From Calditrichota bacterium (GTDB taxonomy: Bacteria; Calditrichota; Calditrichia; RBG-13-44-9; J042), in assembly GCA_013150955.1 (NCBI GenBank), contig JAADJD010000055.1:1-33052 (forward strand): a stretch of 33,052 nucleotides of DNA, in the 5' to 3' direction. Positions 7,938 through 33,052 of the stretch are shown in pieces. The notes below the pieces were generated by a model. That model searched no databases, was not told where the DNA came from, and saw only the letters and a list, made by a program, of their open reading frames with translations. Position 1 is the first letter of the stretch. Every line of letters starts with the position of its first letter. The translations under genes were made by a program, and so were the position numbers.

Positions 7938-8126
7938 TTTTTCCCCCAATTTTTTATTTAGAATATATAGAATACCATTTTTAAGTGTCAAACTTTGACT
8001 TCATCTTAATGTATTTGCATTCAATAAAGAATTGTATGACGCATCATAGAAAGCATGTTGATACTAAAGAGAATATTATAAACCCGAATTTAGCATCTAC
8101 AACCTGCTATTCAACGATTTTATAAT

Positions 8127-8553
8127 CCCAAATAATGCGTTAAACCACGAACCACGCGAATGAATTCGAATCATATCAACAAAATAGCGAATATATCCGG
8201 GAAAACACTTTCATCCAGAGAGCATTAAGTGCATTTTATTGTTTTTATTGGTGTTCATTCGTGTAATTCGTAGGCGAATGCATAATCTGGGTTAATTTTA
8301 TTTGTGTTCATTCGTGCAATTCGTGGTTTAACCCAGAGAATGCGTTAGACCACGAATTACACGAATTAACACGAATAGAATTAATAAAATACATTGGATT
8401 ATTTCTGGATGAAAATGTGTTGCGTGGTTTTATTCGCGATTTAATTGATATTTTTTGGTTTCATTCGCGTGATTCGCGGTTTATTGAATTATTTGGGTTT
8501 AACGCATAATCTGGGTTAATTCGTGTAATTCGTAGGCTATCGCATAATTTGGG
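8127..8553 (+). mobile_element. Cluster of nested copies of a short inverted-repeat element (MITE-like)
   Basis: Bases 8127-8291 form a full-length copy that begins CCCAAATAATGC and ends GCATAATCTGGG. A reversed copy (8332-8497) sits inside the right arm of another partial copy whose terminus is at 8515, and a third right arm ends at 8551-8553 (TTTGGG). The whole cluster is flanked by the same five bases, ATAAT, at 8122-8126 and 8554-8558. TTAAT follows both internal right ends (8292-8296 and 8516-8520). This is what repeated insertion, with some recombination or deletion, would leave. No coding capacity is seen; the element would need a transposase supplied from elsewhere. Confidence 0.75.
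8332..8497 (-). mobile_element. Reversed copy of the short inverted-repeat element, nested, with TTTAA target duplication
   Basis: This 166-base copy is the reverse complement of the family consensus: it begins CCCAGAGAATGC and ends AATTATTTGGG. It is flanked exactly by TTTAA on both sides (8327-8331 and 8498-8502). Removing it together with one TTTAA restores an uninterrupted right arm, ATTCGTGGTTTAACGCATAA, then TCTGGG, of another copy. This makes it a clear secondary insertion. Confidence 0.82.
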
Positions 8554-8572
8554 ATAATCTCGTCTGAAACAA

Positions 8573-9131: not shown

Positions 9132-9308
9132 ATCTATCTGACCTCCTTTTTTATTTTCGGTGCAACTATTGCGCTGGCAGAAAACTATGGATGATCCCAT
9201 TTAAAATCAAGTTCGGAAGCCATTTGCTTTCCAGCCGCCCCCCATTCCCGCAAAACCTGGTGGGCAAACGCCCTGCTGACTTCCGTTCAACCCAAATTGT
9301 GCATGAAA

Positions 9309-9473
9309 CCCAAATAATGCACTGAACCACGAATCACGCGAAAGAATTCGGAAAAAATCAACAAAATAGCGAATATATCCGGGAAAACATTTTCATCCAG
9401 ATAGAATCCAGTGCATTTTATTGTTTTTATTGGTGTTCATTCGTGTCATTCGTAGGCGAATGCATAATCTGGA
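9309..9473 (+). mobile_element. Short inverted-repeat element, full-length copy abutting the ccoH stop codon
   Basis: The 165-base copy begins CCCAAATAATGC and ends GCATAATCTGGA. Its interior is nearly identical to the 8127-8291 copy (for example the shared AATAGCGAATATATCCGGGA). The flanking pentamers are TGAAA (left) and TTAAA (right), a target duplication with one mismatch. Its last base is followed at once by the TTA that is the stop codon (TAA) of ccoH. Confidence 0.8.
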
Positions 9474-9974
9474 TTAAAAAATAAATCGCTTTTCATGATA
9501 GTAAGACACGCCATCCACTTCCCACTCCAATTTCACCGTCCACATGCCCCGTGCCAGGCGTGATGTATCCAGCACCTGGACACCGGTAGAATCCAGCTGC
9601 AGCGGGAGGGTAAAATCCAGCGCCGCATTGGATGGCCGATAAAATACAATCTTTCCCTGAACCGCCTGATGGGGCACATCATGGTTAAACTGAATGGTCA
9701 ACGAACGCGCCACCGGATCATGCTGCAGGGATACCACATCCCCCAGCGCGCGGGTACGCAAAATCCGCTGGATCTGCTCCTCGTACTGTAATCCCTTCTC
9801 GTAATAATTTTCGGTGACCAGATCAAACCGCTGGCCACTCAAATAAAACAGAAGACCAAACAGGAAACCCAGAAAACCCATTAACGTCAGGGCAATGCCC
9901 AGCGGCCACACCCAGGCTCCGGAACGTTTTTTTCCGCTGGATGCATCGTTTATGGGAACCGATGATTTGTTCAT
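9474..9974 (-). CDS. ccoH: FixH/CcoH family cbb3 oxidase assembly protein
   Basis: The 166-residue protein has one transmembrane helix (about residues 24-48, GIALTLMGFLGFLFGLLFYL) and a periplasmic domain. The signature DLVTENYYEKGLQYEEQI directly follows the helix, as in FixH/CcoH. FixH-like proteins are needed for assembly of the cbb3 oxidase, probably together with the copper ATPase CcoI. The start is supported by AGGAG upstream. The gene lies downstream of ccoG but is separated from it by about 430 bases that hold two repeat copies, so it may have its own promoter. The stop codon coincides with the border of a repeat element. The cytoplasmic tail is short and basic (SGKKRSGAW), consistent with an N-in orientation. 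Confidence 0.85.
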   Translation of the reverse strand: MNKSSVPINDASSGKKRSGAWVWPLGIALTLMGFLGFLFGLLFYLSGQRFDLVTENYYEKGLQYEEQIQRILRTRALGDVVSLQHDPVARSLTIQFNHDVPHQAVQGKIVFYRPSNAALDFTLPLQLDSTGVQVLDTSRLARGMWTVKLEWEVDGVSYYHEKRFIF

Positions 9975-10110
9975 AGGTGTTTCTCCTCTGGCTTCGTTTG
10001 CTTTCCCCGCTTTTCAGGTACCATCACCGATAACCAATCGGAAATTCAGTCAATTCTCGCGTCGTTTTCCTAATCGATCGATGAAACCCAGATCAAGCAC
10101 CCACACCCTA

Positions 10111-10276
10111 CCATTTAAGGTATATTAAACCGCGAATCACTTGAATAAAACAAAACACATCCACAAAATCATGAATAAATCCCGAAAACAAATTTTTATC
10201 CCGACACAATTCAAAGGATTTTACGATTTTTATTTGTGTTCATTCGTGTAATTCGTGGTCTCATGTATAATCTGGG
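10111..10276 (+). repeat. Diverged copy of the short inverted-repeat element
   Basis: The right end TATAATCTGGG and the arms AAACCGCGAATCAC and ATTCGTGTAATTCGTGG match the family. The left terminus is degraded (CCATTTAAGGTATATT), so its exact border is uncertain. The right flank is TTAAA. No matching left pentamer is seen. Confidence 0.6.
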
Positions 10277-10359
10277 TTAAAATTGACCGATTCAAAAAAA
10301 TTTGTTGCCCAGGCACCGGTAAATTTTGATTGCGGAAGCGTTGTCTTCTAACAATCTAT

Positions 10360-10408
10360 TCTTATTTGCATTCATTCGCGGGATTCGCGGTTTATAGTTT
10401 AATTCGGG
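10360..10408 (+). repeat. Truncated right end of the short inverted-repeat element abutting the ccoG stop codon
   Basis: Only the right arm is recognisable (CATTCATTCGCGGGATTCGC, then GGTTTATAGTTTAATTCGGG). Its last G at 10408 is followed directly by TCA, the reverse of the ccoG TGA stop, within the pentamer TCAAA. Another TCAAA occurs at 10292-10296 and could be the left duplicate, but the left end itself is not recognisable. Confidence 0.5.
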
Positions 10409-11815
10409 TCAAAATTCCGGGCTCACAAAGCGACTGGTCACCTTCTCCAGCAATTCGTTCCCATTGTAAACGCCGATCACCACTTTGATTTTGCTGCCGC
10501 GAATTTCTGACCGGGGAATGCGAATGAAGAAAGCCGATTCCGCCATGCCGTCGCCGGGCACGTGAATATCCTGCCCCGTGACCATGTAAATTTCCCCGCG
10601 TGGCTCCAGTAGTTTCAACTGGATATCGTACTCCCGGAACGACTTGTTGACCACCCGAACATTGTACAGATTCTGAATCCGTCCACCTTCCAGCTCCTGA
10701 TACAGGACTCCGGGCGTTCGCAGAATGGTCGTCTCCACCGGCGAGCGCGTGATCAGTAAATAGCTCAGCAAACCGGTAATGGCCACAAACAATACCGTGT
10801 AGGCCACGATGCGCGAGGTGATCTTTAGTTTTTCTCCCCGTTCGATGGCATCCATGGATGTGTACCGGATGAGTCCCCGGGGGCGCTGAATTTTATCCAT
10901 CACCAGATTGCAGGCATCGATACAGGCGGTGCAATTAATGCATTCCAGCTGGGTACCGTTTCGGATGTCAATCCCTGTGGGGCACACCTGCACGCATAGC
11001 CGGCAGTCGATACAATCGCCCAGGTGGGAAGTATCCTGGCCTTTGCGCAACTTTCCACGGGGTTCTCCCCGCTTGTAATCATAGGCCACCACAATGGTAT
11101 TGGCATCCAGCAACACCCCCTGAAGCCGCCCGTAGGGACACACCATGGTACACACCTGTTCCCGAAAGCGGGCGTAAATGCCATAAAACACCGCACTGAA
11201 CAGCAGCATCATGCTCAGGCCGGCAATGTGCTTCTGAGGCGGATCGGTTACAATTTCCCACAATTGATCAATACCGATGATATATGCCAGCAGGGTGTTC
11301 CCGATCAGAAACGAAATGCCAAAAAAGATCCCGTGCTTTAAAAGCTTTTTAAAGATCTTCTCCTTTGTCCAGGGTGCCCGATCCAGTTGCCGTTGCTTGT
11401 GCGCATCGCCTTCAATCCAGTACTCGATTCGGCGGAAGACCATCTCCATAAAAACCGTTTGCGGACAGGCCCAGCCACACCAGATTCGACCCAGCACCGA
11501 TGTAAATAGAATGATAAAAATGATGATCGCCAGAACCGCCAGGGCAAACAGGTGCAAATCCTGCGGCCAGAATGGAATGCCAAACAGGATAAACTTCCGT
11601 TCAACCACATTCAGCAGAATGAAGGGCTGACCATTCACTTTAATGAAAGGGGTACCAAACAGGATGGCCAGCAGAACGATGCTGACCAGAGTACGCGCCC
11701 GGTACAATGGCCCCCGGGGCTTTTTGGGATAAATCCAGATTCGTTTACCGGATTCGTCAATCGTGGCCACCCGATCGCGGAAACTCTCGCTACTATTGGC
11801 CGTGGCACTCATCAT
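10409..11815 (-). CDS. ccoG: Cytochrome c oxidase accessory protein CcoG (FixG/RdxA)
   Basis: The 468-residue membrane iron-sulfur protein has the full CcoG pattern. Transmembrane helices flank CGWACPQTVFMEMVFRRIEY (from residue 113). A further CPYGRLQG motif and two ferredoxin-type clusters follow, CIDCRLCVQVCP (268-279) and CINCTACIDAC, and then one more helix and a C-terminal immunoglobulin-like CcoG domain. CcoG takes part in cbb3 oxidase assembly; work on Rhodobacter points to reduction of Cu(II) to Cu(I) for the copper supply. The gene follows the ccoNO-Q-P structural genes after a terminator-like hairpin at 11915-11940. All conserved cysteines are present and the length is normal for the family. 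Its stop codon touches a repeat fragment. Confidence 0.93.
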   Translation of the reverse strand: MMSATANSSESFRDRVATIDESGKRIWIYPKKPRGPLYRARTLVSIVLLAILFGTPFIKVNGQPFILLNVVERKFILFGIPFWPQDLHLFALAVLAIIIFIILFTSVLGRIWCGWACPQTVFMEMVFRRIEYWIEGDAHKQRQLDRAPWTKEKIFKKLLKHGIFFGISFLIGNTLLAYIIGIDQLWEIVTDPPQKHIAGLSMMLLFSAVFYGIYARFREQVCTMVCPYGRLQGVLLDANTIVVAYDYKRGEPRGKLRKGQDTSHLGDCIDCRLCVQVCPTGIDIRNGTQLECINCTACIDACNLVMDKIQRPRGLIRYTSMDAIERGEKLKITSRIVAYTVLFVAITGLLSYLLITRSPVETTILRTPGVLYQELEGGRIQNLYNVRVVNKSFREYDIQLKLLEPRGEIYMVTGQDIHVPGDGMAESAFFIRIPRSEIRGSKIKVVIGVYNGNELLEKVTSRFVSPEF

Positions 11816-22153: not shown

Positions 22154-22180
22154 GAAAGAATCGGAAGCGTTGCCACTAAA

Positions 22181-22345
22181 CCCAAATTATACAATAAACC
22201 GCAAATCACGCGAATGAAACCAAAAAATATCGACAAAATCGCGAATAAACCCTGGACCACATTTTCATTCAGACACAATCCAATGTATTTTACTGGTTTT
22301 ATTTGTGTTAATTCGTGCCATTCGTAAGCTATTGCTTAATCTGGG
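22181..22345 (+). mobile_element. Short inverted-repeat element, full-length copy with perfect CTAAA target duplication
   Basis: The 165-base copy begins CCCAAATTATACAATAAACC and ends AGCTATTGCTTAATCTGGG. The termini are imperfect inverted repeats of one another (CCCAAATTATACAATA versus CCCAGATTAAGCAATA). It is flanked by CTAAA on both sides (22176-22180 and 22346-22350). It lies between two convergent genes. Its right end touches the TAG stop codon of the NSS symporter, which is part of the duplicated CTAAA. Confidence 0.85.
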
Positions 22346-23710
22346 CTAAAAACTCTGAAACACGTTTAGCAGTACCACGGCAATGATAATAGGGGTGATG
22401 TACTTAATAAAAATTCCCCAGAGCTTTCCGTACGTAATCGACAATCCCGGCAGGGAACGATTCATGAACCCACTGCCTTCGTTAATTTCTTCCAGGGCGC
22501 GGTCAATGCCCCACACCCATCCAATAAACAGACTCAGCATCAGCGCCCCCAGCGCCAGCGATACGTTCCCCCAGATAAAATCCATCAAATCCAGAAAACT
22601 CTTCCCCTTAAAAAAGCTCAACTCGCTTAACGAAGCCACCGCTCCCTGGGACAATGCCGAGGGCACCCCCAGCAGAAAGGTCGCACCGCCCACCATCCAG
22701 ACGGCGATTTTGCGGGGCTTGCGTTTTTCATCCACCAGGTATGAAACGGCAACCTCCAGCAGGGAGATGGTTGAGGTTAATGCCGCAATGGACAGCAGCA
22801 AAAAGAAAGCCGCACCAATAATGGTTCCAAACGGCAATTGGGCAAAAATTTTCGGCAGGGTGATGAATACCAGTTTTGGCCCGGCATCCGGTGCTTCCCC
22901 CAGCGCAAACAGGGCCGGAAAGATCATCAATCCCGCCAGCAATGCAATGCTGGTATCAAATATGGCCACCGAAACACCCGAAGTGACCATGTTGTCTTTT
23001 TTGGAAAGGTAAGAACCGTATGTTACCATGGCGCCCATTCCGAGGCTCAGGGAGAAAAACGCCTGTCCCAGGGCCGCCAGTATCACCTGCCCGTTGATCT
23101 TGGAAAAATCCGGCTGCAAATAAAATACCAGTCCCTTGCTGGCACCCGGAAGGGTAACACTGCGCACAATCAACAGTAATATCAGAAACAGCAGCAGTGG
23201 CATCAAAATCTTTGACCACCGCTCAATGCCATTTTGAATGCCCCCATACACCACCAGCACGGTGAATAGCAGGAACAATCCCAGCAGGGGCACTGCCAGC
23301 CAGGGATTGGCAATGAACGACTCGAAGGGGACGGTATTGTGAAACAGGGTCTTAAAAATATATCCGAATGTCCAGCCGGCAATAACGCCATAATAGCTTA
23401 AAATAAAAAAGCCAGTAATCACCCCAAGCGCGCCCACCCCGACCCAGGGGCTATTGGGTCGAATGGCCTGGATAGCGCCCACGGGATTCCGCTGCGTGCG
23501 GCGCCCCAGCGCCAGTTCGCCGAACAAATAGGGCAAACAGATCAACGCCACCGCCAGCAAGTAGATCACCACAAATGCTGCACCGCCGTTCTGCCCGGTG
23601 ATGTAAGGAAATCGCCAGATGTTTCCCAATCCAATTGCCGATCCCGCCGCTGCAAAAATAAAACCCAGCTTCGAACTAAACTGCCCCCGATGTTCATGGC
23701 CTGCGTGCAT
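22346..23710 (-). CDS. Neurotransmitter:sodium symporter (NSS/SNF, LeuT-type) family transporter
   Basis: The 454-residue protein has about 12 helices. Its start, RGQFSSKLGFIFAAAGSAIG followed by LGNIWRFPYITGQNGGAAF, is the diagnostic first helix of the NSS family and supplies the sodium and substrate sites. Bacterial members are sodium-coupled amino acid transporters (LeuT, TnaT, MhsT types); the substrate here is likely an amino acid, but which one cannot be said. AGGAG precedes the ATG. It is convergent with the SSS symporter, and the two stops are separated only by a repeat element. The frame ends QSF followed by TAG, with the stop inside the element's target duplication. Confidence 0.92.
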   Translation of the reverse strand: MHAGHEHRGQFSSKLGFIFAAAGSAIGLGNIWRFPYITGQNGGAAFVVIYLLAVALICLPYLFGELALGRRTQRNPVGAIQAIRPNSPWVGVGALGVITGFFILSYYGVIAGWTFGYIFKTLFHNTVPFESFIANPWLAVPLLGLFLLFTVLVVYGGIQNGIERWSKILMPLLLFLILLLIVRSVTLPGASKGLVFYLQPDFSKINGQVILAALGQAFFSLSLGMGAMVTYGSYLSKKDNMVTSGVSVAIFDTSIALLAGLMIFPALFALGEAPDAGPKLVFITLPKIFAQLPFGTIIGAAFFLLLSIAALTSTISLLEVAVSYLVDEKRKPRKIAVWMVGGATFLLGVPSALSQGAVASLSELSFFKGKSFLDLMDFIWGNVSLALGALMLSLFIGWVWGIDRALEEINEGSGFMNRSLPGLSITYGKLWGIFIKYITPIIIAVVLLNVFQSF

Positions 23711-27266: not shown

Positions 27267-29075
27267 TTGCCCGTTTTCGGAGCATGGGTATTGTTGGCCG
27301 CAATCCCCAATCACCGGGCGGTTATTATCCCGAATTTTTCATTCGCCTACAAATGACACGAATTAAAACGAATAAAAACAATAAAATTGGATGTATCTGA
27401 ATAAAAATATATTCCGGGGTTTATTCGCGATTTTGTGGATATTTATTGGTTTCATTCGTGTGATTCGCGGTTAAATGCATTATTTGGGATTATTTTGCCC
27501 TTTCAGGGCGGAGGGGGTGTGGATTGGGTTGGCTCCTTTACCAGGGGCGTTGCCCCTGGCTATCCTGTTTTGCCCCTTCAGGGCGGGATGAAATAGGTGG
27601 TTCTTTCTGATTTCCGTGGAAAATTCGCATGGTTTTCCTGAATCTCGATGGCCGATATTTTGCCCCTTCGGGGCACATTTGCTTGAAGGGCAAAAATAGG
27701 GTAGCCCCGTGCAGGGCGCGGGGGGCACGTGATACTCACCGATGATACACCCGCTGCCTGAAGGGCAGCAATAGAATTTGTTCATTTCCGGGACGATGGG
27801 CATTGTTGGTTGGGATTTTCCGATTACCGGGCAGTTGCTATTTTGCCCTTTCAGGGCGGAGGGGATTTATGGTTTTGGGACGTTCCCATTACCAGGGGCG
27901 TTGCCCCTGGCTATCCTGTTTTGCCCCTTCGGGGCGGGATAAGACAGGTGGTTTTTTCTGTTTTTTCCTGGAAGATTCTCCTGGTTTTCCTGAATCCCGA
28001 TAGCCGATATTTTGCCCCTTCGGGGCACATTTGCCCGAAGGGCAAATAGATAATAGCCCCGTGCAAGGCGCGGGGGACACGTGATACCCACCGATGATCC
28101 ACCCGCTGCCTGAAGGGCAGCGATAGAATTGGCCCGTTTCCGGGGCATGGGCGTTGTTGGTTGGGGGTTCCCAATCACCAGGCGGTTGTTATTCTGCCCT
28201 TACAGGGCGGAAGGAGTTGTGGATTGGGTCGGCTCCGTTACCAGGGGCGTTGCCCCTGGCTATCCTATTTTGCCCCTTCGGGGCGAGATAAGACGGAGGG
28301 TTTTTCTGTTTTTTTCATGGAAGATTCGCATGGTTTTCCTGAATCCCGGTGGCCGATATTTTGTCCCTTCGGGGGCAGATTTGCCCGAAGGGCAAAAATA
28401 AGGTAGCCCCGCGCAGGGGGCGGGGGCATGTGATACCCACCGATGATCCATCCGCTGCCTGAAGGGCAGCAATAGAATTTGTTCGTTTACGGGACGATGG
28501 GCATTGTTGGTTGGGATTTCCCGATTACCGGGCGGTTGCTATTTTGCCCTTTCAGGGCGAAAGAAATTTATGGTTTTGGGACGTTCCCGTCACCAGGGGC
28601 GTTGCCCCTGGCTATCCTGTTTTGCCCCTTCGGGGCGGGATAAGACGGTAGGTTTTTCTGTTTTTTTCATAGAAAATTCGCATGGTTTTCCTGAATCCCG
28701 ATTGCCGATATTTTGCCCCTTCGGGGCACATTTGCCTGAAGGGCAAAAATAGGGTAGCCCCGCGCAGGGCGCGGGGGACACGTGATACCCATCGATGATC
28801 CATCCGCTGCCTGAAGGGCAGCAATAGAATTGGCCCGTTTCCGGGGCATGGGCGTTGTTGGTTGGGGGTTCCCAATCACCGGGCGGTTGTTATTCTGCCC
28901 TTACAGGGCGGAATGAGTTGTGGATTGGGTCGGCTACACTACCAGGGGCGTTGCCCCTGGCTACCCTATTTTGCCCCTTCGGGGCGGAGGGAAATTGTGG
29001 TTGGGAACGTTCCCATTACCAGGAGTGATCCCCCTGACTATCCTATTTTGCCCTCTTGAGGCACCCCATCATCTG
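27267..29075. repeat. Tandem array, 350-bp unit in an alternating 701-bp dimer, rich in GC palindromes
   Basis: The landmark ACCAGGGGCGTTGCCCCTGG starts at 27540, 27891, 28240, 28592 and 28941, giving spacings of 351, 349, 352 and 349. Each full unit also has GCCCTTTCAGGGC or GCCCTTACAGGGC, GCCCCTTCGGGGC, TTGCCTGAAGGGCAA-type, GCCCCGCGCAGGGCGCGGGG and GCTGCCTGAAGGGCAGC palindromes. Two unit types alternate: one with GGATTGGGTCGGCT (27520, 28220, 28921), one with GGTTTTGGGACGTTCCC (27871, 28572). The array therefore has four full units and partial ends. A fragment at 27267-27328 starts it and is split from the rest by an inserted element (27329-27488). Short frames of 60-100 codons repeat on both strands with each unit and are artefacts of the repeat, not genes. 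Function unknown. Confidence 0.88.
27329..27488 (-). mobile_element. Short inverted-repeat element inserted in the tandem array, ATTAT target duplication
   Basis: The 160-base reversed copy begins CCCGAATTTTTCATTCGCC and ends GCATTATTTGGG, with ATTAT on both sides (27324-27328 and 27489-27493). Joining the flanks through one ATTAT restores the array sequence CGGGCGGTTATTATTTTGCC, which matches the same place in the other units. The element therefore entered the array after the array existed. Confidence 0.85.
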
Positions 29076-30626: not shown

Positions 30627-30757
30627 TTCGGCCCCTTTGGTAATTCGTCGATGAATAAATATAACAACGAAATTGGTGTAATGAAAAAAATTCTGCGAAT
30701 GAAGAGTGGGACGATGTGCGTCGCCTGATGAGTGGTGATTGGGGTGATTTTTTTACC

Positions 30758-31180
30758 GCAGGCATAAAGCCTGCGACTACCCTTGCCAACTGCCTACTGC
30801 CAACTGCTCACTGGCCAAATGGGCATAAAGCCTTCGGCTACCAACGTGCCCGACTCTCCAGAGTCGGTCGTCCCGCAAAGCAGGACGTGGGTCTGTCATC
30901 AGTTTTGTTCAGTTGCAGAAATGCGCAGGCATGAGGGCTGCGGCTACCACTGCCAACTGCCTACTGGAAACTGCTCAATGGCCAAATGGGCGGAAAACCC
31001 GCGGCTATCAACATCTGTAGCCCGACTCTCCAGAGTCGGTCGTCCCGCAAGGCGGGACGTGGGTTTGTCATCAGTTCTGTTCAGTGGCGGAAATGCGCAG
31101 GCATAAAACCTGCGATTACCCTTGCCAACTGCTTACTGGCAACTGCCAACTTGTTAAATGGGCATGAAGCCTGAGGCGAT
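30758..31180. repeat. Tandem palindromic repeat, period about 172 bp (left of the protease gene)
   Basis: Units start at GCAGGC 30758, 30925 and 31097. Each unit holds the inverted repeats GCAGGCATAAAGCCTGC, CCGACTCTCCAGAGTCGG and CGTCCCGCAAAGCGGGACG (with variants), and a CTGCCTACTGCCAACTGCTC-like stretch. The small frames inside it carry the repeat and are not genes. The 131 bases before it, upstream of amrB, hold nothing else recognisable. Confidence 0.85.
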
Positions 31181-31211
31181 GTGGATGATGAAAACCTTCT
31201 CAAAAATGCAA

Positions 31212-31239
31212 AAGGGGAATGCCACCGGACATTCCCCTT
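31212..31239 (-). terminator. Rho-independent terminator of the subtilase gene
   Basis: A perfect 10-bp stem (AAGGGGAATG / CATTCCCCTT) with an eight-base loop lies about 20 bases after the protease stop. On the minus strand it runs into TTTTGCATTTTTG. Confidence 0.88.
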
Positions 31240-31260
31240 GAAATTGACACTCCATAATTT

Positions 31261-32424
31261 TCAATAATGCGCAATCGGATCCGGATTACCGTCGGGATCC
31301 TGCAGGGCGTAACCATCGGTGTTAATCGAGCCCAGCAACAACAGCGCCGCCACGTGCGGGGTGGCCATGGAGGTGCCACTGATCGTATTGGTGCCGCCAT
31401 CCTTCCACAGCGAAAGGATACTCACCCCCGGCGCGGCATAATCGATGGGCGGGTTGCCCCAGTTGGAAAAAGAAGCAAACACATCATTGGCATCGATGGC
31501 CGAAACGGTGTAAACGTAGGTACCGTTCACGCGTGCCGGGGAATAGTTGTTGGCATCATCTCCATCGTTGCCCGCAGCGATGGCAAAATATATCCCCTTA
31601 GAAGACGCATTCAACACCGCATCATCCAGCGCCTGGGAAACCGGGCCGCCCAGACTCATATTGGCCACGTCCCCGGGCGAAGCATTCGCGCCCACGTAAT
31701 CCACACCATTGATCACCCAGGAATAATATCCACTACCAGACTGATCCAGCACTTTTACAGCAACCACGGTTGCCCCTGCGGCCACACCTACCACATCAAT
31801 GTCATTATCGATGGCGGCAATGGTACCGGCCACGTGGGTACCATGACCATTATAATCGTCTGCTGATCGGGCATCCCGACCCCGCTCCACAAAGGTCACA
31901 CTGCGGGAAACATCCACATTCAAATCCGGATGATCCAGATCCACACCCGTATCGATAATCCAGGCCACTTTCCCGGTACCATCGATCGGGCCACCCACCC
32001 GGATCACTCCCCAGGGAATTTCTTCCGCCTGCGAGGAACCCGGTCGTCCCCGAACCGGTGCCAGACGCACCACTCGATCGGGTTCAATATACTTCACCCG
32101 GGAATCTCCTTTTAAACGGCGAACTTGCGCCTCACTGAAATATCCCGCAAATCCCAGAATGGTATTCCAGTAGCGATGGGTAATCTGCCCCGGATCGACC
32201 CCGAATGCCCGGGCATATTGATCCAGCATTTCCGGCGATGCAGAGGGAAACTGCTCTTTGTCCAGTACCACAATGTAACGTCCTTCCGCCTTTAAGGAGG
32301 ACGTCGAAAGCCTGCCGGAGGCAACAGGGGACTCGCTCAACGACAGACTTTCGTTAATTGATTCGCAGGACAGCAAAAAAAGAAAAACGGCCAGAAAAGA
32401 TAAAATAAATCCGAACCGCCTCAT
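31261..32424 (-). CDS. Lipoprotein subtilisin-like serine protease (S8) with I9-type propeptide
   Basis: The 387-residue protein has a lipoprotein signal peptide (lipobox LLSC, Cys20). Residues about 49-120 are an inhibitor_I9-like propeptide (RYIVVLDKEQF ... KYIEPDRVV). The catalytic domain follows with Asp158 in IIDTGVDLDHPDL, His194 in NGHGTHVAG, the oxyanion Asn286 in AAGNDG and Ser352 in SGTSMATPHVAA, so the triad is complete. Export through the Sec path, lipid anchoring and self-processing are expected. It probably degrades proteins at the cell surface or in the periplasm. AGGAGG precedes the ATG. The gene stands alone with its own terminator, between two arrays of the same repeat. The C-terminus ends DPDGNPDPIAHY soon after the Ser motif, as in compact subtilases. 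Confidence 0.93.
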   Translation of the reverse strand: MRRFGFILSFLAVFLFLLSCESINESLSLSESPVASGRLSTSSLKAEGRYIVVLDKEQFPSASPEMLDQYARAFGVDPGQITHRYWNTILGFAGYFSEAQVRRLKGDSRVKYIEPDRVVRLAPVRGRPGSSQAEEIPWGVIRVGGPIDGTGKVAWIIDTGVDLDHPDLNVDVSRSVTFVERGRDARSADDYNGHGTHVAGTIAAIDNDIDVVGVAAGATVVAVKVLDQSGSGYYSWVINGVDYVGANASPGDVANMSLGGPVSQALDDAVLNASSKGIYFAIAAGNDGDDANNYSPARVNGTYVYTVSAIDANDVFASFSNWGNPPIDYAAPGVSILSLWKDGGTNTISGTSMATPHVAALLLLGSINTDGYALQDPDGNPDPIAHY

Positions 32425-32679
32425 AGCAACCTCCTGTGTTTATGACTGGTTATCCAAAGGGCATTCCTCAGGGAAGGATGGGAAAACTGCAGGAAGAGCA
32501 CCGTGTCAAAGTCCCTGACAAACAGCATGGCCAATTATACGTTTCCGAAAGAAAAAAATCAAATAGAATCCTGTAGTTTTTACAAAAAATTTTTCAAATT
32601 TTGAATTTGTCCTGGCAGATGGTATGGGAGCCTGAATTATTTCCCCGGATTTCAGGCCTTTATTTTAAAAAACATTGCC

Positions 32680-33052
32680 GCAGGCCCAAAGCCCGCGGCT
32701 ACCAACGCTTGTAACCCGACTCTCCAGAGTCGGGCGTCCCGCAAAGCGGGACGTGGATCTGTCATCAGTTTTATTCAATTGCAGAAATGCGCAGGCATAA
32801 AGCCTGCGGCTACCACTGCCAACTGCCTACTGGAAACTGCTCACTGGCCAAATGGGCATAAAGCCTGCGGCTACTAACGCTTGTAGCCCGACTCTCCAGA
32901 GTCGGTCGTCCCGCAAAGCGGGACGTGGGTCTGTCATCAGTTTTATTCAGTGGCGGAAATGCGCAGGCATAAAGCCTGCGACTACCCTTGCCAACTGCCT
33001 ACTGCCAACTGCTCACTGGCCAAATGGGCATAAAGCCTTCGGCTACCAACGT
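32680..33052. repeat. Tandem palindromic repeat, period about 172 bp (right of the protease gene, runs off the window)
   Basis: The same family as at 30758-31180 and in the same orientation; GCAGGC unit starts at 32680, 32791 and 32963, the first unit being shortened. The last 90 bases (32963-33052) are identical by eye to 30758-30847. The 255 bases between the protease start and this array hold the presumed promoter and nothing else I can identify. Confidence 0.85.

Follow-up and report, generated by a model that had tools for sequence, protein, structure and literature searches.

Element copies and genes in the window

The window analysed here is the whole 33,052-nucleotide stretch of DNA from a Calditrichota bacterium (GenBank assembly GCA_013150955.1, contig JAADJD010000055.1, positions 1 to 33,052), which forms part of G000:C11 in a genome of 4.07 Mb and 66 contigs. 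It carries copies of a short non-coding element, two copies and one fragment of which directly abut the stop codons of genes. The relevant features are as follows.

8122..8296, + strand: MITE copy (ATAAT ... TTAAT), first in a nested cluster
8327..8502, - strand: MITE copy with a perfect TTTAA duplication, from direct sequence reading and hits to the terminal inverted repeat (TIR)
9304..9478, + strand: MITE copy at the ccoH 3' end; full-model profile hit, core 9309-9473, right arm toward the gene
9474..9974, - strand: ccoH-like gene, from the ORF list; stop TAA is 9474-9476 reversed
10124..10285, + strand: second MITE copy, nearly full with a degraded left terminus (repeat family D2, seed alignment), beside the ccoG-side fragment
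10363..10408, - strand: element fragment, left arm CCCGAATTAAAC..., a 26-bit profile hit that abuts the ccoG stop
10409..11815, - strand: ccoG (TIGR02745, E 3.7e-133); stop TGA is 10409-10411 reversed, within the pentamer
22176..22350, + strand: MITE copy with a perfect CTAAA duplication; core 22181-22345, right pentamer holding the symporter stop
22346..23710, - strand: NSS-family sodium-dependent transporter (NF037979, E 4.1e-41)
27324..27493, - strand: MITE copy with a perfect ATTAT duplication (27324-27328, 27489-27493), from TIR hits; nearest gene end about 100 bp away

As the sequence-only reading had reported, the reversed stop codon begins at the base immediately after the element end in ccoH (TTA at 9474), ccoG (TCA at 10409) and the symporter (CTA at 22346). 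The element cores end at 9473, 10408 and 22345, and the flanking pentamer holds the stop in all three genes. The ccoH-side copy is flanked by TGAAA (9304-9308) and TTAAA (9474-9478, which holds the ccoH stop), an imperfect duplication, and the pentamer that flanks the ccoG-side fragment is TCAAA (10409-10413). Both symporter duplicates were found to be intact, as had been stated, with a perfect CTAAA at 22176-22180 and at 22346-22350. The name of the short ccoH-like protein was taken from its synteny with ccoG, and an NCBIfam search with this protein gave no hit.

The copy at 8327-8502 was inserted in the right arm of an older copy, and the older arm resumes on both sides of it (remnants 8297-8331 and 8498-8520). 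The nested cluster to which these copies belong (8122-8557) ends with a further right-arm fragment and is a direct record of successive insertions. Solo 18-bp TIR remnants (CCCAAATTGTGCA...) often lie just outside the element ends, at 9288-9303 and in the flanks of other copies, as if the element had inserted repeatedly at a TIR-internal TTAAA and the older copy had then been lost. The copy at 27324-27493 adjoins a tandem array of approximately 350-bp units (27518-29072), each with CCAGGGGCGTTGCCCCTGGCTA and GCCCCTTCGGGGC palindromes, and a second repeat family with 91-bp and 300-bp units and CGCAGGCATAAAGCCTGCG palindromes occupies 30757-33052.

Structure, abundance and orientation of the element

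The profile and the element counts were obtained from 1.19 Mb of the genome in stretches, which is 29% of the whole. The profile describes a non-coding element of approximately 165 bp with terminal inverted repeats and CCC...GGG ends; its termini are CCCAAATAATGCATTAAACCGCGAATCACGCGAAT... and ...ATTCGTGTAATTCGTAGGCTAATGCATAATCTGGG, and the consensus ends are CCCAAATAATGC / GCATAATCTGGG. It is therefore short, non-coding and bounded by TIRs, as a MITE is. The 345 non-overlapping profile hits in the 1.19 Mb, 163 of them full length, account for 3.4% of that sequence, and extrapolation gives about 1,180 hits in the genome. The number and dispersal of these hits, the nested insertions and the empty sites in a congener are those of a mobile, high-copy MITE. 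In the whole genome a 40-base right-arm TIR pattern matched 477 times, compared to 0 times for the reversed control. An Rfam search of the window gave no hit, and an exact-pattern TIR scan of the GTDB genomes, with the genome's own records left out, matched no other species. The element is a previously undescribed, lineage-restricted MITE of a known kind, and among the genomes searched it appears to be confined to one species.

The right arm faces both the ccoH and the NSS transporter genes. The claim that the same right end faces the gene in all three cases did not survive, as the ccoG-side fragment (10363-10408, CCCGAATTAAACTATAAACCGCGAATCCCGCGAATG) is a left arm with an alignment score of 28 vs 15. 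Across the 1.19 Mb, 16 right ends and 14 left ends overlap a stop, and in tandem regions 36 elements have the same orientation and 31 the opposite one. A right-end-only orientation rule was rejected, because left and right ends on stops are about equally frequent and the ccoG copy is a left arm.

The element uses a short palindromic target

Of 162 full copies, 57 carry the same pentamer on both flanks, while 15 would be expected on partner shuffling, which defines a fixed 5-bp duplication. More than 90% of the ends have T at position 2 and A at position 4 of the pentamer, and the other positions are mostly A/T. The perfect duplications and this base preference together indicate that the target is WTWAW (A/T-T-A/T-A-A/T) and that it is duplicated on insertion; the perfect duplications in the window are CTAAA (22176/22346), ATTAT (27324/27489) and TTTAA (8327/8498). 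WTWAW fits only about two thirds of the ends that lie far from genes, which suggests that many MITE ends have decayed or are less specific. The element also uses its own copies as targets: element sequence flanks 129 of 494 ends, compared to 2 with shuffled flanks, and the hot spot is the element's own TTTAT.

Any match to WTWAW includes either TAA or its complement TTA, and 25% of the stop codons of this genome lie wholly within one. Genes hold 72% of the WTWAW sites. The possibility that WTWAW is a "safe" target, unusually scarce in coding DNA, was rejected, as its coding/intergenic density ratio is 0.46 and that of any A/T pentamer is 0.44.

Coincidence of element ends with stop codons

Genes were called with a home-made hexamer model (846 genes, 78-85% coding per contig), in which starts and small genes are approximate. 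End positions were measured for the outer ends of merged clusters, with hits left unweighted for the shared ancestry of nested clusters. In the 1.19 Mb, 130 element ends have a gene 3' end facing them at a distance of at most 100 bp, and in 29 of these the stop lies wholly inside the flanking pentamer. The genome-wide excess at stops, which had been proposed as the check on the sequence-only reading, is present when judged against a flat, position-blind null (4.2 expected), but it disappears when the target is taken into account. Weighting the sites by target preference gives 28-34 expected stop-containing pentamers, and 33.1 are expected when the preference is learned solely from ends that lie 30 bp or more from any gene, so that the excess beyond target preference that a terminator unit should show was not seen (29 observed). 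The insertion rate per WTWAW site is 20/257 (7.8%) at stops and 68/635 (10.7%) downstream (p = 0.24). Only two registers at stops are occupied because WTWAW permits those two: 15 pentamers coincide with the final five bases of the gene (NNstop), 14 lie one base further on (NstopN) and none is of the stopNN type. The description of the genes as ending in TTT-stop is correct for the window, but genes elsewhere also have ends of the ATAA, TTGA and ACTAA types.

The stop codons predate the insertions

The congener G001 has 1 TIR match, compared to the 477 in this genome. Its orthologues of ccoH, ccoG and the transporter are without the element and have the stop at the same codon. The ccoH orthologue in L068 ends in ..ARFVF* and the gene in the window in ..KRFIF*, with the position of the C-terminal codon unchanged, and the ccoG pair ends in SPED* in our genome and SPEF* in the congener, again at the same codon. 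The NSS transporter orthologue is 92% identical, and the empty site in the congener is GTTTTTAGTTCGGG where our genome has GTTTTTAG followed by CCC. The last bases of the transporter gene, including TAG, are common to both genomes: GTTTTTAG is followed by TTCGGG in the congener and by CCCAG here. The presence of the symporter stop before insertion, which had been deduced from the intact duplicates, is thus borne out in an element-poor relative. Among the stop-abutted genes with an orthologue in the fetched congener stretches, 8 of 10 end at the same codon and 2 of 10 differ by approximately 3 residues. The shared end codons in the element-poor congener indicate that the stops predate the insertions.

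Distribution of the element among genes

No element cluster was found inside a predicted gene, even though genes hold most of the WTWAW sites; this result covers predicted genes, because a gene destroyed by an insertion would be called in pieces or missed altogether. We infer that purifying selection, rather than target avoidance, keeps the genes empty. Between genes, the number of insertions per 100 WTWAW sites is 15.0 in convergent, 6.5 in tandem and 1.7 in divergent regions, and insertion density drops toward start codons. Avoidance of promoters and operons explains most of this gradient. A residual enrichment between convergent genes remains (60/401 sites, vs 84/957 for tandem sites 100 bp or more away from a start, p = 0.003) and bears on the possibility that the element is retained as a 3'-end unit. 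Folding of the element as RNA gives a long, imperfect hairpin (-42.4 kcal/mol, z = -2.8).

An IS1380-family element as the likely mobiliser

The genome encodes an IS1380 transposase (NF033539, 219 bits with a cut-off of 180), which is the sole transposase above the IS1380 cut-off among 16 genomes of the order. The gene (L061:1-1401, G000:C18) is cut by the contig end and is apparently frameshifted near its 5' end, and for this reason no intact autonomous IS copy was seen. The outer TIR is shared, with the upstream IS end CCCAGATTACGCAATAG matching the MITE end CCCAGATTATGCATTAG at 15 of 17 positions, while the inner TIR of the MITE (about 30 more bases) is absent from the IS. The IS end is present five times in the genome, and three of these occurrences are interrupted by the end of a contig; the IS is therefore probably multi-copy and collapsed in the assembly. 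The four occurrences besides the transposase copy all follow TTTAA, and one of them lies inside a MITE.

The agreement in target between the IS and the MITE comes from these TTTAA copies and from relatives of the IS, the other end of the genome's own IS being missing from the assembly. The relatives are 46-62% identical and have CCCARATTNNSCATTAG-type termini, for example CCCAGATTGTCCATTAG and CCCAAATTTCCCATTAG. Perfect 5-bp duplications, all NTNAN, were found in 8 of 11 (ATTAT, ATTAA, ATTAA, TTCAA, TTCAT, TTCAA, CTCAT and TTTAA); the end pairs were picked for maximal duplication identity from few candidates, and the inverted repeats agree independently at 15-20 of 20 bases. From the termini and target, the IS1380-family transposase encoded in the same genome is the most likely to mobilise the MITE in trans.

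Explanation of the stop-codon coincidence

Our data are best accounted for by target choice plus survivorship, without recognition of gene ends, and we assign this reading a probability of about 0.9. In the proposed mechanism, the IS1380-family transposase of the same genome would move the MITE in trans and cut the palindromic WTWAW with a 5-bp stagger, thereby duplicating the pentamer. Stop codons are ordinary target sites, because every WTWAW contains TAA or TTA and a quarter of the stops lie inside one. The duplication leaves a complete pentamer next to the gene; the stop is thereby regenerated and the gene unharmed, while insertions in coding sequence have probably been purged by selection. 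The precise abutment of element and stop follows from target choice and survivorship together.

The sharp two-position spike, with 29 ends where the flat null expects 4.2, is what would be seen if the transposase or a partner protein read gene ends or terminators besides the pentamer. The same spike is given by the target alone, however; stops are hit at a slightly lower rate per WTWAW site than downstream sequence, and non-genic WTWAW sites, including those in other copies, serve equally well as targets. That stop codons are recognised in addition to the pentamer was rejected on the lack of excess over the target-aware expectation, and such recognition is extremely improbable. The proposal that the machinery prefers TTTAR-type sequences at gene ends is therefore right in that a short sequence (WTWAW) is preferred, but this sequence is used anywhere and not at gene ends or terminators in particular. 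There is equally little chance that the element truncates genes and its flank gives them a new stop. The pentamer always carries TAA or TTA and could provide one, and two of the ten tested genes do differ from the congener at the C-terminus; the eight others, which include all three window genes, end at the same codon without the element, and the last bases of the symporter gene, TAG included, are unchanged. For these genes the element was rejected as the supplier of the stop.

A role as transcription terminator or mRNA 3'-end unit, for which the element would be retained at the ends of genes, is very unlikely, if somewhat less so. Insertion density per WTWAW site peaks between convergent genes, where it exceeds that of the promoter-distant tandem sites, and the RNA hairpin is long. 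On the other hand, stops show no excess once the target motif is accounted for, orientation is unbiased both in tandem regions and on stops, any palindromic MITE would give such a hairpin, the flank is not a U-tract, and the same gradient is expected if promoters and operons are avoided. The other possibility raised from the sequence alone, that the element is retained as a 3'-end or terminator unit, thus finds no support in the stop coincidence, the orientation or a U-tract. A doubtful further possibility, to which we give slightly more weight, is that the MITE, besides its selfish spread, now also serves between convergent genes as a recruited terminator or insulator that acts in both directions. 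If true, this would account for the 1.7-fold insertions per target site in convergent compared to promoter-distant tandem regions.

Relation to known elements

No relevant precedent for an element located on stop codons was found in a search of the literature. REP/BIME repeats are palindromic, intergenic and concentrated outside genes, and the element resembles such 3'-end repeats in being a palindromic intergenic repeat that lies mostly outside genes. It has target duplications and nested insertions, and is therefore a transposon insertion and not an enterobacterial REP unit. PiggyBac elements have CCC...GGG ends. The MITE shares with them these ends and a TTAA-centred palindromic target, a likeness in sequence features, but piggyBac makes 4-bp duplications at a strict TTAA and the MITE 5-bp duplications at WTWAW. 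The IS1380 family serves as the bacterial outgroup of piggyBac (PMC10813416).

The IS1380 family (ISEcp1, IS1247; NF033539 / PF13701) is linked to the element by the transposase in the same genome, termini starting CCCAGATT and 5-bp duplications. ISEcp1 is reported to make 5-bp duplications (TATGA) and to favour AT-rich targets (PMC2887853), and IS1247 has 5-bp repeats (PMC3281130). The MITE differs in being non-coding and approximately 165 bp long, and in its palindromic WTWAW target in place of TATGA. With bacterial type I MITEs, as distinguished from type II (PMC3542288), it has in common its short non-coding structure, TIRs, target duplications, many intergenic copies, and an outer TIR common to MITE and resident IS. 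It is unusual among them in its abundance, 3.4% of the sampled sequence compared to a cited "up to 2%" (PMC3281130), and in its occurrence in a single species among the genomes searched.

These results document a very abundant MITE, seen in a single species of its genus and tied to a resident IS1380 element. They also suggest a general rule, by which a transposon with a TA-centred palindromic target will seem to "choose" stop codons that its own duplication regenerates. A target-aware null is thus needed before a function is proposed for repeats that are claimed to mark or make the ends of genes.
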